Below, in pieces: positions 6,632-23,169 of a stretch of 64,000 nt of DNA. Source of the DNA: Sporichthya brevicatena (lineage in GTDB: Bacteria; Actinomycetota; Actinomycetes; Sporichthyales; Sporichthyaceae); the NCBI RefSeq assembly GCF_039525035.1, contig NZ_BAAAHE010000018.1, positions 1 to 64,000 of the forward strand, written 5' to 3'. How positions within the stretch are numbered: position 1 is the first letter of the stretch; the number at the start of each line of letters is the position of its first letter. The position numbers were made by a program, and so were the translations under genes. The notes under the pieces were generated by a model. It searched no databases. It saw nothing but the letters and a program-made list of their open reading frames with translations, and was not told the origin of the DNA.

Positions 6632-6770
6632 GGGATCCCTCTCGTCGATCGAACACCTACCGCCGACCCAGCATCCTTGCACGCGGCTCGCCGGGAGGCC
6701 GGAGGCGGTTGCACCCCGCCCGACCGGGAAGGATTCGACCACGAACGCCTCCGAACGAAGGAGAAATCCG

Positions 6771-7261: not shown

Positions 7262-8119
7262 TCAGTCGGACTGGCGCACCGCGCGGCGCAGGCCGAGGCC
7301 CGCACCCACCAGCAGCAACCCCGCCACCCCGACGCTCGCGGCGCCCGAGGCACCGGTCGCCGGCAGGGCGTCCGGGTGCTCCTCGAACGACCCCTGGACG
7401 GCGTCGTCCTCCTCGGTGACCTGGTCGTCGGTCTCCTCGGCCGGCGTGCCCGAGCCGGTGCCGTCACCGTCGCCCACCGGGGTCCCCGGGGTCACGACCG
7501 TGTCGATCGTCGGGTCCGTGCCGGGGTCCGGGTCGATCGTCCCGGGGTCCGTGCCCGGGTCCGTGCCCGGGTCCGGGTCGATCGTCCCCGGGTCGGTGCC
7601 CGGGTCGGTGCCCGGGTCCGGGTCACCACTCGACCCGGTGCCGGGGTCCGGGTCCGTCGTACCGGGGTCCGTGCCCGGGTCCGGGTCCGTGACGGCGGGG
7701 CACTCGACCTTGAACACCTTCTCCTTGTTGGTCTCGCCATCGAGGAGGGTCGCCTTGTAGTGACCGTCCGGCAGGGAGATGACGGCCGAGGACCAGGAGC
7801 CGGCGGGGTCAGCGACGTAGGTGCCGGTGTGGACCACGGGGGCGCCGCTGTTCCACGGCGGGCCCGAGACGATCGAGTACGTCACGCTCTCGTCCGCGTC
7901 GAAGCCGTCGCCGACGATGGTGAAGGCGCAGACCTTCGGCTCGTTGCTGTTGTCGGTGTCCGCCGTGCCCACCCCGTGGATCTTGATCGTGCCCGAGGAC
8001 TTCGACGCGGCGACCGCAGCGCCGGCGGAGGTCAGGGACAGCACCACGAGACCCGCCGCCACGCCGGCACCGGCGGTGGCGCGAGCAATCTGGGAACGGG
8101 TGCGGTGGGTGTGCTTCAT
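7262..8119 (-). CDS. LPATG-anchored cell-wall surface protein with Asp-Pro-Gly-Thr repeats
   Basis: A 285-residue exported protein. It has a signal peptide (Arg-rich start, hydrophobic core, cut near AVAAS), a folded region of about 100 residues with no family I recognise, then a low-complexity stalk of DPGTDPGT-type repeats (about residues 140-205). After an acidic linker comes the sorting signal LPATG, a hydrophobic helix and the basic tail RRAVRQ, so sortase attachment to peptidoglycan is expected. The ATG at 8119 was chosen because the signal peptide begins there. The repeat stalk probably lifts the N-terminal domain through the wall. It is divergent from the methyltransferase gene. The only sortase in the window is class E. 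Confidence 0.88.
   Translation of the reverse strand: MKHTHRTRSQIARATAGAGVAAGLVVLSLTSAGAAVAASKSSGTIKIHGVGTADTDNSNEPKVCAFTIVGDGFDADESVTYSIVSGPPWNSGAPVVHTGTYVADPAGSWSSAVISLPDGHYKATLLDGETNKEKVFKVECPAVTDPDPGTDPGTTDPDPGTGSSGDPDPGTDPGTDPGTIDPDPGTDPGTDPGTIDPDPGTDPTIDTVVTPGTPVGDGDGTGSGTPAEETDDQVTEEDDAVQGSFEEHPDALPATGASGAASVGVAGLLLVGAGLGLRRAVRQSD
7511..7691 (-). repeat. Tandem DNA repeats encoding the DPGT stalk
   Basis: Imperfect tandem units of 12-48 bases built from GGGTCCGTGCCCGGGTC-type sequence. They stay in frame and encode DPGTDPGT and TIDPDPGT units. Such repeats can vary in number between strains. Confidence 0.85.
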
Positions 8120-8147
8120 CGGCTCTTTCTCGGCTTTCTCGACGTGC

Positions 8148-18121: not shown

Positions 18122-20005
18122 ATGGTCCTGCCGAGCGTCGTCGTGGTCGACGACGCACCCGAGGTACGCGCTCTCGTGCGGACCGTGCTCGAGGTGTCCG
18201 ACCAGCTGACCGTGGTCGGCGAGGCGGCGGACGGCGCGGCCGCGGTCGACGTCGTGGCCGACCTGCAACCGGATCTGGTGCTGCTCGACGTCTCGATGCC
18301 CCGCATGGACGGCCTTCAGGCCCTTCCCAGGATCCGGGAGGTTTGCCCGACCAGTCGCGTGGTCATGTTCACGGGGTTTGCCGAACAGGGTCTGGCGGAT
18401 CGCGCCCGGTCCCTCGGCGCGGTCGGTTTCCTCGAGAAGTCCGCGTCCCTGACCGACTTGGTGGAGACCTTGCTCGATGCAGTGTCCACCGGTCCGGTGC
18501 CTGTCTCCCCCACCCTGGCGGCGCAGACCGACCGGCTCGACGCCGCCGTGCTCGCCGAACATCTCGAGCGGTTCCGCGAGGTCTTCGAGGACGCTGCGAT
18601 CGGGATGGCGACGATGACGCTCTGCGGGCATCTCGTGCGGGTGAACCGGACGCTCGCCGACCTGGTCGGCCGCTCGGTGAAGGACCTCGTCGGGCTGCGG
18701 TACGACACCCTCGCCGGTGCGGACCTCGTCGCGGAACCCCTGCGCCGGATCCTCGACGGCGAGGACGTCGTCCGCGTCGAGCACGACCTGGTCGGCGGCG
18801 AGCGCAGTGTGGTCGCCACATTCGTCAGCGTGCGCGACTCCCGGAACCGCCCGCTGTACGTGTTCCTCCAGATGCAGGACGTCACGGCGCAGCGCGGGGC
18901 CGAGGAGGAACTGCGCCGGAGCGAGGAACGCTTCCGACTCCTCGTCGACGCCGTGCAGGACTACGCGATTTTCATGCTCACCACTGACGGCATCATCGCG
19001 AGCTGGAACGTCGGGGCGCAGCGGATCAAGGGCTGGGCGGCCGAGGAGATCGTCGGCCGGCACTTCCGGGCGTTCTACCCGCCGGAGCAGCAGGAGTCAC
19101 AGCACCCCGAACGCGAGCTCGAATGGGCAATCCGCGACGGGCGCTACGAGGAAGAGGGCTGGCGCCTGCGCAAGGACGGCTCCCGGTTCTGGGCGAACGT
19201 CGTGATCACCGCGGTGCACGACGCGGACGGTCGGCACATCGGCTTCACCAAGGTGACGCGAGACATGACGGAGCGTCAGGAGATGCTCAACCACCTCGCG
19301 GCCATGAACCGGAAGCTCAAGAACGCCGCCGACCAGCAGGCCGACTTCCTCGCCGTCACGGCTCACGAACTCCGCACGCCGGTCAGTGTGCTGAGCGGGT
19401 CGGCGAAGTTGTTGTCCGAGCACTTCGACGAACTCACCGAGACCGATCGCGCCGAGCTGTTCGAGTCCATGGGCAGCAGCGCGCTGCGGTTGCGCCGTCT
19501 GCTCGACGACCTGCTCACCGCGTCCCGGTTGCAGTCGGGGACGGTCGAGTTCCGGGTCAGCAGCAGCGAGCTCGCGCCCCTGCTCGCCGCCGCCGTCTCC
19601 CGCGCGCAGGGCTCGAACCCGGGAGCGCGCATCACCATGTCGGTTCCGCCGGACCTCGTCGTCGACGTCGACACCGACCGGATCGCGCAGGCGGTGGACA
19701 ACCTGATCGACAACGCGGTCCGGCACGGGACGCCGCCGGTGCAGGTGACGGCCGTGGGCACCGCGGACGGCGTCGAGATCTGCGTGAGCGACGCGGGGGC
19801 CGGCGTCCCGGCCGAACAGCGGTCGCAACTGTTCCAACGGTTCGCCACCGGCCAGCGCCGGACCGGCACCGGTCTCGGGCTGTTCATAGTCCGCGAGCTG
19901 GCCCGGGCGCACGGGGGCGAGGCGCGGTACGAGCCTCCGACCGCGGACCAGCCGTCCGGAGCCTTCGTCCTCGCACTCCCCCGGGTCGACCGTGACGTTG
20001 CCTGA
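18122..20005 (+). CDS. Hybrid signalling protein: receiver-PAS-PAS-histidine kinase
   Basis: A 627-residue soluble protein. The N-terminal receiver domain (about 4-120) has the phosphoacceptor D56 in LLDVSMP and the Lys in LEKSAS. Two PAS domains follow (about 150-260, with VTAQRGAEEEL, and 270-390, with FRLLVDAVQDYAIFMLTTDG). The kinase core has H415 in AHELRTP, the N-box DNLIDNAVRHG and the ATP lid DAGAGVP/GTGLGLFIVREL. The receiver-first order is unusual: most hybrids carry it at the C-terminus. The stop overlaps the next gene by 14 bases. It probably signals through the adjacent receiver/HATPase protein and the SpoIIE phosphatase. No membrane segment is seen, so the signal is intracellular. 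Confidence 0.92.
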   Translation: MVLPSVVVVDDAPEVRALVRTVLEVSDQLTVVGEAADGAAAVDVVADLQPDLVLLDVSMPRMDGLQALPRIREVCPTSRVVMFTGFAEQGLADRARSLGAVGFLEKSASLTDLVETLLDAVSTGPVPVSPTLAAQTDRLDAAVLAEHLERFREVFEDAAIGMATMTLCGHLVRVNRTLADLVGRSVKDLVGLRYDTLAGADLVAEPLRRILDGEDVVRVEHDLVGGERSVVATFVSVRDSRNRPLYVFLQMQDVTAQRGAEEELRRSEERFRLLVDAVQDYAIFMLTTDGIIASWNVGAQRIKGWAAEEIVGRHFRAFYPPEQQESQHPERELEWAIRDGRYEEEGWRLRKDGSRFWANVVITAVHDADGRHIGFTKVTRDMTERQEMLNHLAAMNRKLKNAADQQADFLAVTAHELRTPVSVLSGSAKLLSEHFDELTETDRAELFESMGSSALRLRRLLDDLLTASRLQSGTVEFRVSSSELAPLLAAAVSRAQGSNPGARITMSVPPDLVVDVDTDRIAQAVDNLIDNAVRHGTPPVQVTAVGTADGVEICVSDAGAGVPAEQRSQLFQRFATGQRRTGTGLGLFIVRELARAHGGEARYEPPTADQPSGAFVLALPRVDRDVA

Positions 20006-20771
20006 GGCCCCGTCACCCATCCGGGTCGTTCTGGTCGACGACGCCCCGGACATTCGTCGGCTGCTGCGGATCTCCCTCCGCACGTACGGTGGCTTCGAAG
20101 TCGTGGGGGAGGCGGGCAACGGCGCCGAAGCGGTGGCGCTCGCGCGTGCACTCCGACCCGACGTCGTCGTGCTCGACCTCGGTCTGCCGGACATCGCCGG
20201 ACAGGAGGTGCTGATCCAGATCCGCGCCTCGGTGCCGGAGACCAAGGTCGTCATCTTCTCGGGCCTCGAGAACGTCGACCGCGCCTGGCTCGTCGAGCAC
20301 GCCGCCGGGTTCGTCCTCAAGCACACCGACCTCGAGTACCTGATCAAGCTGCTCGAGTCCGTCGGTCGCCAGGAGTCACGCCGGCAGGCCCAATTCACGC
20401 TCGAGCCGCAGCTGCGGTGCGTCGCGGCCGCGCGCCGGTTCCTGTTCCGGACCCTGAGCGACTGGGAGGTCACCGAGCTCTACGGTGACTCGGTGATCGT
20501 GGTCAGCGAACTCGTCACCAACGCGATCACGCACGCCCCGTCCCCGGGCGAGCTCCGCCTGTCGCTGCTGCCCGACGTCCTGCGCGTCGCCGTCACCGAC
20601 GCCGGCACGGGCGCGCCTGAGCCCCGGCACGCGAGTTCCACCCGGGAGGGCGGCCGCGGGCTCTACCTGGTCAACGCGCTGACCTCGGCGTGGGGCATGG
20701 AGCCGCTGCCCGACGGAGGCAAGGTCGTCTGGGCGGAAGTGACCCGCGACGCGGTGGTGCCGGAACCGTGA
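19992..20771 (+). CDS. Response regulator with C-terminal RsbW-like HATPase domain
   Basis: A 259-residue protein. The receiver domain (about 10-125) has D62 as phosphoacceptor (VVLDLGLPD) and K110. It is followed not by a DNA-binding domain but by a short HATPase_c domain (about 140-255) with SELVTNAITHAP and GGRGLYLVNAL, as in RsbW/SpoIIAB-type anti-sigma kinases. Output could therefore be phosphorylation or sequestration of a partner-switching protein. The gene overlaps the upstream kinase gene and, by GTGA, the downstream phosphatase gene, so all three are coupled. Confidence 0.9.
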   Translation: MTLPEAPSPIRVVLVDDAPDIRRLLRISLRTYGGFEVVGEAGNGAEAVALARALRPDVVVLDLGLPDIAGQEVLIQIRASVPETKVVIFSGLENVDRAWLVEHAAGFVLKHTDLEYLIKLLESVGRQESRRQAQFTLEPQLRCVAAARRFLFRTLSDWEVTELYGDSVIVVSELVTNAITHAPSPGELRLSLLPDVLRVAVTDAGTGAPEPRHASSTREGGRGLYLVNALTSAWGMEPLPDGGKVVWAEVTRDAVVPEP

Positions 20772-21579
20772 GCGGGTCCGAGCACCTGTCAGCACTCGAG
20801 ACCGCCGAGCTCCTCGCGGAACTGACGGCGAGCAACGCCCGCTTCGCGCAGATCGCGCGGACGCTGCAGCGGAGCCTGCTGCCACCGGTGCTGCCGGCGC
20901 CCGAGGGGCTGGACCTGTGCGGGGTCTTCCACCCATCGCGGGAGGGCCAGGACGTCAGCGGCGACTTCTACGACGTCTTCCCGGCGGGGCGCAGCGACCT
21001 GATGCTCGCGCTCGGCGACGTGTGCGGCAAGGGCGCCGAGGCGGCGGCGATCACGGCCATCGCCCGGCACACGATCCGCGCGGTCGCGCCGGATCTGCGG
21101 TCCCCCGCCCACATCCTGCGCCGGCTGAACGACACGATGCTCGGGCACGACATCGACGAGCGCTTCTGCACGGTGGTGCTCGCGCGCGTCCCCGCATCGT
21201 CGACGGAGTCCGGCTCTCGGTCTGCACGGCCGGCCATCTGCAGCCGGTCGTGGTCCGCGCCGACGGCCGCGTCGAGCGCGTCGGACTGCCGGGGTCGTTG
21301 CTCGGGTTGTTCCCCGACATCCGCCTGCTCGAGGAGACCGTGCAACTGCGGCGCGGCGACATGATCGTGGCGTTCACCGACGGGGTCACCGAGGCCCGCG
21401 ACGGCGACGAGCAGTTCGGCGACCAGCGGACCGAGAAGCTCCTCGCGGCGTCCGCCGGACTGTCGGCGACCGAGACGGCCGGCATCCTGCTGGACGAGGT
21501 GCTGCGGTTCGCCGGCACCAGCGCACGGGACGACATTGCGATCCTGGTGCTGCGCGTCCCGCCTCCCCCACCCGCCTGA
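20768..21579 (+). pseudogene. SpoIIE/RsbU-type PP2C phosphatase, interrupted by a one-base frameshift
   Basis: The gene starts at GTG 20768 (overlapping the previous stop). Frame 2 encodes the coiled N-terminal region, SGDFYDVF, LALGDVCGKGAEAAAITA and ends at ARV. The rest of the domain (TAGHLQPVVV, FTDGVTEARD, SARDDIAILVLRV) continues in frame 1 up to 21579. The break is at the CCCC run 21190-21193; one more C would restore VPRIVDGV. As written, the first frame runs to a false stop at 21364. Metal-binding Asp residues are all present when the two parts are joined. It could be a sequencing error, a recent mutation or a phase-variable tract. The restored protein would be about 270 residues and would remove phosphate from an anti-sigma antagonist. 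Confidence 0.85.
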
Positions 21580-21586
21580 CGTTCCG

Positions 21587-22954
21587 TCAGGTCTCGTAGG
21601 CCTCGAGCGGGTCGCCGACCTCGATACCGCGATCGGTGATCCGGTACCGGCGCACCTCGGGCTCGTGCGCGCTGGCCCGGGTCTTCAGCACGGTGACGGC
21701 GCGTTTGATCCGTGAGTCCGACCGCACGTACTGCAGCAGGATCACGTTGTCGCTCATGTTCGAGACGCCGAGCTCGGAGAGCCGGTTGAGGTGGAACAGG
21801 TCCGGCACCTCCATCGTCAGGAACACGCTGACGCCGCGGGTCGCGCACCGCTGCACGAAGGAGTAGACGTACTCGCGGAAGCGGATGGGATCGGGGGAGG
21901 CGTGCGCGAGGTCGCCGAGGCTGTCGACCATCAGCCGGCTGGCGCCCGTCCGCTCGGCCCGTTCGAGAACGGTGTGCACCCACTCGTCGACGTAGAGGTC
22001 GACGGACGATCGGTAGAGCAGATCGATCTGAGGGTGCGACAGATCCCAACCGAAGCCGGCGGCCGCCCGAGCGAGCTGCGTCGGGTTCTCCTGGAGCGTG
22101 GCGATCAGCCCTCGCTCGCCGGTTTCGGCGCCAGCGACGATGAAGCTCATCCCGAGGACGGTCTTCCCGACCCCGGACGGGCCGGCCGCGAGCGTCGACG
22201 ACCCGGGCCAGTAGCCCCCCGTCATCGAGTCGAGCACCGAGATCCCGGAGGTGAGGCGCTGCTCGCTGAACGGATAGCTGTGCTGGTCCGGGGGGTCGGC
22301 GAGGCGGGGGAAGACGTGGAGTCCGTCCGCGGAGAGGCGGTACCCGTGCTGGCCGGACATGAAGTCGCTGCCGCGCAGCTTGAGGACCTGGAGCATCCGC
22401 ATCTGCCGCTCGGAGCTCATCTCGGAGCTCAGCGAGATGATGGCGTCCGCGACGGCGAACTCGGGCTCGCGGCTGATCTCGTCCGCGTTGTACTCGCCGA
22501 CCCACAGCGCGGCGGCGCCGGTGGCGGACAGCCGGGCCGCGATGTCGTGGAGGAACCAGCGGAAGTCGCTGGGCTCCTGCGCGAAGGCGTGCAACGCCTT
22601 GAAGCTGTCGATGACGATGAGCCCGGGCCGGTGCTCGGCGATGACCGCCTCGAGGCGTTCGACGAACGCCGGCAGCCCCCGCTCGTCGAGGACCCCGCCG
22701 AGGTCCTCGTAGAAGGCGTACTTCCCGACGGCGTCCTCGTCGAAGAACGACAGGCTCCGGCCGTAACGGAGGATCTTCTCCATCGGCTCGGAGACCGTGG
22801 AGACGTAGAGCGAGGGCCGTTCCGGCGTCGCGTTCGCGAACACGATCTGCTGGGCGAGGAGCGTCTTCCCCGTCCCCGGGTCGCCGGTGATCATCGTCAG
22901 CGCGTCGTCCCAGATCCCGCCTCCGAGCACCTGGTCCAACCGGGGGATGGCCAC
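21587..22954 (-). CDS. KaiC-like double-domain ATPase (RecA superfamily)
   Basis: A 455-residue protein with two RecA/KaiC domains. The first Walker A, GDPGTGKT (24-31), has Walker B LIVIDS (112-117); the second, GPSGVGKT (258-265), has a Walker B around RLMVDSLGDL. A duplicated domain is the layout of cyanobacterial KaiC, but KaiA and KaiB are absent here. KaiC-like ATPases outside cyanobacteria take part in signalling or stress responses, and the convergent neighbours are two signalling kinases and a phosphatase. The GTG at 22954 gives a start close to the first fold element. It is convergent with the phosphatase gene, seven bases apart. Confidence 0.93.
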   Translation of the reverse strand: MAIPRLDQVLGGGIWDDALTMITGDPGTGKTLLAQQIVFANATPERPSLYVSTVSEPMEKILRYGRSLSFFDEDAVGKYAFYEDLGGVLDERGLPAFVERLEAVIAEHRPGLIVIDSFKALHAFAQEPSDFRWFLHDIAARLSATGAAALWVGEYNADEISREPEFAVADAIISLSSEMSSERQMRMLQVLKLRGSDFMSGQHGYRLSADGLHVFPRLADPPDQHSYPFSEQRLTSGISVLDSMTGGYWPGSSTLAAGPSGVGKTVLGMSFIVAGAETGERGLIATLQENPTQLARAAAGFGWDLSHPQIDLLYRSSVDLYVDEWVHTVLERAERTGASRLMVDSLGDLAHASPDPIRFREYVYSFVQRCATRGVSVFLTMEVPDLFHLNRLSELGVSNMSDNVILLQYVRSDSRIKRAVTVLKTRASAHEPEVRRYRITDRGIEVGDPLEAYET

Positions 22955-23093
22955 TGGACAGTCGTGCGGACACCGCGTTCCTCCCGTCCTCGCCCCGCGA
23001 CCCTAGCGGCCCCGCGCGGCTCCGCCGGGCCCCTTCCCCGGTCCCGCCCCGTTCACCCACCCGCGGCTGGGGGTGACGAGCGAACGACGTGAG

Positions 23094-23169
23094 TGGTGGA
23101 GACGAGGGGACTTGAACCCCTAACCCCTGCCTTGCAAAGGCAGTGCTCTGCCAGTTGAGCTACGTCCCC
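23094..23169 (-). tRNA. tRNA-Ala (anticodon TGC)
   Basis: A complete cloverleaf on the minus strand: acceptor GGGGACG/CGTCTCC, T-loop GTTCAAGT, anticodon TGC in CTTTGCAAG, discriminator A and encoded CCA (23094-23096). It is paired with tRNA-Ile near gyrA, as in other actinobacteria. Confidence 0.97.

Follow-up and report, generated by a model that had tools for sequence, protein, structure and literature searches.

A KaiC-like ATPase co-inherited with a SpoIIE-type phosphatase beside a two-component operon in Sporichthya brevicatena: a candidate signalling module

We propose that a double-ring ATPase of the KaiC family works with a dedicated SpoIIE/PP2C phosphatase and that, at the locus described here, the phosphatase has also come under a two-component system. 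We hold this reading at a probability of about 0.5. The module is most likely a signalling device of the partner-switch type and not a clock. The window, which is the whole stretch of DNA analyzed, covers bases 1-64000 of contig C18 in an actinobacterial genome of 5.2 Mb and 89 contigs. The locus consists of the following features:

18122..20005, plus strand: soluble hybrid sensor kinase (HK), REC-PAS-PAS-HisKA-HATPase_c (Pfam)
19992..20771, plus strand: response regulator with GHKL output, REC-HATPase_c_2 of the RsbW/SpoIIAB type (Pfam)
20768..21579, plus strand: SpoIIE/PP2C-type serine phosphatase without a sensor domain, frame-broken near 21190 (Pfam, in halves)
21580..21586: stop-to-stop gap of 7 bases in the convergent SpoIIE/kaiC pair
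21587..22973, minus strand: double-domain KaiC-like ATPase, native start GTG 22973, open frame from GTG 22954 (PF06745 twice)

The initial annotation described three overlapping plus-strand genes and a convergent double-domain KaiC gene seven bases away, and this layout is borne out. The HK and REC-HATPase genes overlap by 14 bases, and the REC-HATPase and SpoIIE genes overlap by the 4 bases GTGA (20768-20771). Exactly 7 bases separate the stop codon of SpoIIE from that of kaiC. The domains that it assigned to the four genes also hold, except that SpoIIE is split rather than a single frame and the native kaiC start is GTG 22973 rather than 22954. A sister species of the same genus (G001) shares the four-gene block in collinear order, with 91-95% protein identity and 91% DNA identity over the locus. 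Given that the named domains score above the Pfam cut-offs and that the block is collinear in G001, the four-gene locus is not a chance assembly. A promoter and terminator scan of the region found no promoter and two terminator-like sites, both of which lie within genes. Beyond the kaiC gene, G001 carries approximately 15 kb with integrase- and transposase-like ORFs (L008/L172/L171) before tRNA-Ala(tgc), an interval that corresponds to 23029-23169 in the window. A 46-base segment of this tRNA gene is repeated at L008:5083-5128, which suggests that the G001 insert is an element integrated at the tRNA.

The KaiC-like gene is rare. At a presence threshold of E 1e-45 or better, it is found in 9 of 394 genomes of the class and in 16 of 396 genomes of the phylum, its own genome included. 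The nearest orthologues belong to G001 (93% identity), G085 (77%), an Acidothermaceae MAG (G059/L052, 74%) and L053 (about 70%). In each of these, a SpoIIE gene converges on kaiC within tens of bases (the G085 locus being L032). The five KaiC proteins with a convergent SpoIIE form one clade in the KaiC tree (support 100/99), and the five phosphatases likewise form one clade in the SpoIIE tree (99/96), to the exclusion of the paralogues that were included from four of the genomes. Moreover, a SpoIIE orthologue (61-100% identity) occurs in exactly four of the 394 class genomes, all four of which encode this KaiC, and the next-best SpoIIE among the 394 reaches 47% or less. By tree and gene order, KaiC and SpoIIE have thus been inherited together, as convergent genes, across at least four genera. 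Genes in convergent orientation do not share a transcript, and the link between these two is only genomic.

The HK and REC-HATPase genes have a different distribution. HK is 93% identical to its G001 counterpart. Among the 393 other genomes of the class, 17 have an HK homologue, in most cases with no KaiC. KaiC occurs in 8 of the 393, and the two coincide in only three genomes, a co-occurrence whose hypergeometric value of 0.003 is inflated by kinship. HK and REC-HATPase homologues lie in order with a 4-base overlap on contig C128 of G059 (54/53% identity), which is not the contig that carries kaiC. A SpoIIE gene other than the kaiC-linked one converges on this second operon (L174:773-5438), which makes it another instance of a similar arrangement. 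Four genomes of family f26 encode the pair as operon partners without KaiC or an adjoining SpoIIE, and KaiC, HK and REC-HATPase are all absent from G002, which belongs to the same genus as the window. A four-gene unit conserved across actinobacteria was considered and rejected, since HK/REC-HATPase and KaiC/SpoIIE occur apart. On these distributions, HK and REC-HATPase are a separate operon, which two species of this genus alone combine with KaiC/SpoIIE. Rather than an ancient unit of four genes, the block is a union of two modules within one genus.

The initial annotation had taken all four genes as one signalling device. Its KaiC-SpoIIE component stands, as the two are linked beyond chance and retained together, whereas HK and REC-HATPase are not retained with them and the four genes do not behave as a single system. 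Relatives of the kind that would contradict a single system do exist in part: KaiC and SpoIIE occur in G059, G085 and L053 without the other two genes adjoining, and HK and REC-HATPase turn up at unrelated locations (G059 C128 and the f26 genomes).

A wider comparison covers 93 KaiC loci after removal of duplicates. At 46 of them, a MerR-HTH-REC gene lies directly upstream of kaiC in the same direction, and at 8 a HATPase-REC gene takes that position. Both types of locus fall in one 65-row KaiC clade (100/100) from Actinomycetota, Chloroflexota and one Acidobacteriota MAG, and the window clade is nested within it. MerR-HTH-REC is the usual operon partner in the 65-row clade, and the window clade has lost or replaced it. 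Relocation of MerR-REC within the window genome was rejected, as only matches to the receiver part at 32% identity or less were found. The sister row of the window clade is Catenuloplanes japonicus L065 (99/96), where the gene upstream of kaiC encodes GAF, SpoIIE, MerR and REC in a single protein (MerR by iterated HMM, E 1.9e-21; the other domains by Pfam). Within the 65-row clade, SpoIIE lies within 3.5 kb of kaiC at 14 loci versus 1 farther out, with about equal amounts of sequence near and far (p = 4e-4, kinship of rows ignored); at the majority of the clade's loci, no SpoIIE gene is close by. On the SpoIIE tree, the genes near the other KaiCs of the clade show 7 changes and so include non-orthologues, which means either that SpoIIE was recruited more than once or that some of these genes are incidental neighbours.

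Two features of the upstream partners can be recorded separately. The gene before kaiC at L074, L075, L078, L080, L084, L089, L093 and L104 encodes HATPase_c_2-REC, with the domains in the opposite order to those of the window REC-HATPase; these loci come from relatives of Planobispora, Actinoplanes and Pseudonocardia and form one KaiC subclade (100/99). In addition, the phospho-Asp position of the receiver is Glu in 11 of the 46 KaiC-linked MerR-REC proteins, which suggests that part of this family may be phosphorylation-independent regulators.

Could the genes be chance neighbours in a signalling-rich stretch, with no functional linkage? Actinobacterial genomes contain many SpoIIE and HK genes (approximately 9-10 SpoIIE genes in each of four genomes searched), which would fit such an explanation. 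The strict co-inheritance, the congruent clades, the enrichment near kaiC and the L065 fusion argue against this explanation, which we regard as improbable. The same evidence supports a KaiC-SpoIIE signalling pair, as does the conservation in KaiC of the Walker A Lys, the second catalytic Glu and the Ser431-equivalent.

KaiC of the window matches PF06745 over two stretches (2.8e-62). Its AlphaFold model (pLDDT 89.1) superimposes on solved KaiC as a full-length match with a Z score of 38.9 and an rmsd of 3.3 over 441 aligned residues at 27% identity. In an alignment of 92 rows, the Walker A Lys is present in both domains of all 92 proteins, the second catalytic Glu of each ring is kept in at least 90, and the Ser431-equivalent is Ser in 82, the window KaiC included. 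The first catalytic Glu is replaced in the window KaiC (E77 to S, E318 to Q), and across the rows its place is taken mainly by Ser in CI and by Gln in CII, which makes KaiC autokinase activity uncertain. In the window clade, Asn stands at the T432-equivalent position. Approximately 27 residues follow the KTRAS motif, and the end of the model aligns near KaiC residue 489. Compared with the positions that we take the A-loop and tail to occupy in KaiC, this short C-terminus seems to lack both elements.

Is this protein a clock component? A reduced KaiC clock or hourglass timer, in which SpoIIE replaces KaiB-promoted dephosphorylation, would draw on the double-domain KaiC fold and the retained Ser431-equivalent, and a single Ser431 site is reported to suffice for a temperature-compensated period in work cited in PMC11832031. 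However, no KaiB (PF07689) was found in the window's own genome (99.47% complete) by a search that was positive in Synechococcus, in agreement with the initial annotation. The protein also fails the NCBIfam clock equivalogs TIGR02655 (157.8 bits against a cut-off of 546.25) and NF006799 (220.7 against 408). In place of the clock's catalytic EE pairs and S431/T432, it has S-E and Q-E, that is, one Glu per ring, and a Ser431-equivalent followed by a T432-equivalent that is N (N or H being the replacements found), and it seems to lack the A-loop and tail. By these tests, the window KaiC is a KaiC-family protein and not a clock KaiC. The timing role that the initial annotation had entertained has no support, given the failed equivalog cut-offs and the lack of KaiB, and we consider a reduced clock highly improbable.

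The PF07228 domain of the window SpoIIE is present as two halves in two frames (profile positions 4-71 and 74-191), and in G001 a single intact frame carries the SpoIIE match. The PP2C metal-binding Asp motifs look canonical when the translation is read by eye. The kaiC-convergent SpoIIE proteins of G059 and G085 have a PAS domain, which is missing in the window genus. This PAS domain (L032:7271-9355, L052:5806-7914) resembles FixL heme-PAS domains, a likeness that makes a putative oxygen or redox input possible.

Relative to G001, the window SpoIIE lacks one base near 21190 and its kaiC has one extra base near 22942, which breaks the frame about 10 codons in. The native kaiC start, GTG 22973, has a Shine-Dalgarno-like GGGAGG, and the extra base lies between 22973 and 22954; the base near 22942 thus cuts off the native start, and the open frame begins at GTG 22954. 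Both genes are intact in G001, G059 and G085, so the phosphatase is unbroken elsewhere, a point that the initial annotation had left for comparison. As both core genes are frame-broken, the module may be inactive in this strain, unless the breaks are sequencing errors. Strain-level decay, in which the breaks are real and the KaiC/SpoIIE pair has lost its function, is compatible with the other explanations. Over approximately 44 kb of coding sequence compared with G001, the two clearest uncompensated breaks both fall within the co-inherited pair; most of the remaining indels are either compensated or situated where genes end or overlap, and the interior of conserved genes shows no further break of equal clarity. 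Further indels that are not multiples of three occur in predicted ORFs at window positions 6765 and 7673-8128, possibly at gene ends or overlaps. However, both SpoIIE halves are still 91-92% identical to the G001 protein, and because both single-base changes fall in short C or G runs, sequencing error is possible. Decay is a serious possibility that falls short of even odds.

The HK protein contains REC (6-116), two PAS, HisKA and HATPase_c domains (Pfam, E down to 1.7e-26), and REC-HATPase contains REC (3.6e-19) and HATPase_c_2 (1.2e-11), with a partial NCBIfam match to the RsbA anti-sigma family. The locus thereby has the HisKA plus HATPase and receiver domains of a two-component system, and the receiver Asp, the HisKA His and the GHKL N/G boxes look canonical in translations read by eye. 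A structure prediction of REC-HATPase without an alignment gave a pLDDT of 38.8 and is unusable.

We propose that the PAS-sensing HK would phosphorylate the receiver of REC-HATPase, whose RsbW/RsbT-like domain would in turn control the phosphatase, itself devoid of a PAS sensor at this locus. SpoIIE would then take phosphate off a serine, either the KaiC Ser431-equivalent or one on an unlinked STAS antagonist. In the STAS alternative, KaiC would be an ATP-dependent scaffold that modulates the output of the antagonist. Along either route, the module would operate as a phosphorylation switch and not as a clock. The narrower version, a KaiB-less KaiC ring whose phosphoserine is reset by its dedicated PP2C (SpoIIE) under two-component control, is one that we consider doubtful. 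RsbT is a GHKL protein. The proposed GHKL control of SpoIIE is drawn by analogy with RsbU, which is activated by its partner protein RsbT (PMC12143880), and with Bacillus cereus RsbK-RsbY, where the kinase drives the PP2C through a receiver (PMC4574943).

A stress-linked role, which the initial annotation had raised, is plausible only by analogy. A general-stress partner switch (RsbK/RsbY or OsaABC-like) might act on a STAS protein and a sigma factor that are not linked to the locus, with KaiC as a neighbour whose role is unrelated, DNA-linked or ATP-sensing. The parts typical of such systems are present in HK, REC-HATPase and SpoIIE, and the three genes overlap, as in translational coupling, with KaiC on the other strand. 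In other genera, however, it is KaiC and not HK/REC-HATPase that stays with SpoIIE, and we judge a general-stress switch of this kind to be rather unlikely. Among the four genes, Pfam identifies neither a STAS protein nor a sigma factor.

The function of most KaiC proteins outside cyanobacteria is an open question, and conserved partners offer direct handles: the MerR-receiver protein at 46 of 93 loci, presumably a transcription factor, the co-inherited PP2C phosphatase in the window lineage and one fusion of both. The expected phosphosite, phosphatase and transcriptional output could be tested in genera with isolates, for example Jiangella, Kribbella or Catenuloplanes. The MerR-REC/KaiC operon was not described in the literature searched, whose coverage was partial, and the KaiC-SpoIIE pairing is not reported in the consulted part of PMC5847659. 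The novelty of both is provisional, as is the view that a KaiC phosphorylation switch with PP2C reset is a kind not described in the literature searched.

How does the module compare with known systems? Archaeal KaiC-like hubs combine KaiC-family ATPases with receiver proteins and no clock (Makarova et al. 2017, as cited in PMC5847659). As far as that account extends, the window KaiC differs from these hubs in being on a different branch, bacterial and two-domain, with relatives that have the MerR-REC operon and SpoIIE. With the cyanobacterial and purple-bacterial KaiC of KaiABC and KaiBC, it shares two RecA-like domains, the fold, the Walker motifs and the Ser431-equivalent. Unlike those systems, it has no KaiB, the first catalytic Glu of each ring is replaced, the T432-equivalent is no phosphosite, the C-terminus is truncated and the partner genes of KaiCs of this type are MerR-REC or SpoIIE. 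A sensor kinase, a receiver, a PP2C and a GHKL partner are held in common with B. cereus RsbK-RsbY and B. subtilis RsbU/RsbT; in the window, however, it is the GHKL domain and not the phosphatase that carries the receiver, the four genes include no STAS protein or sigma factor, and KaiC is added. In Streptomyces coelicolor OsaA/OsaB/OsaC, a hybrid kinase and a regulator are coupled to a kinase/PP2C protein, OsaC, which unites these domains with PAS/GAF sensors, and the system has no KaiC. The window locus resembles it in combining a hybrid kinase, a regulator and a PP2C, and differs from it in the separate phosphatase and in the presence of KaiC.
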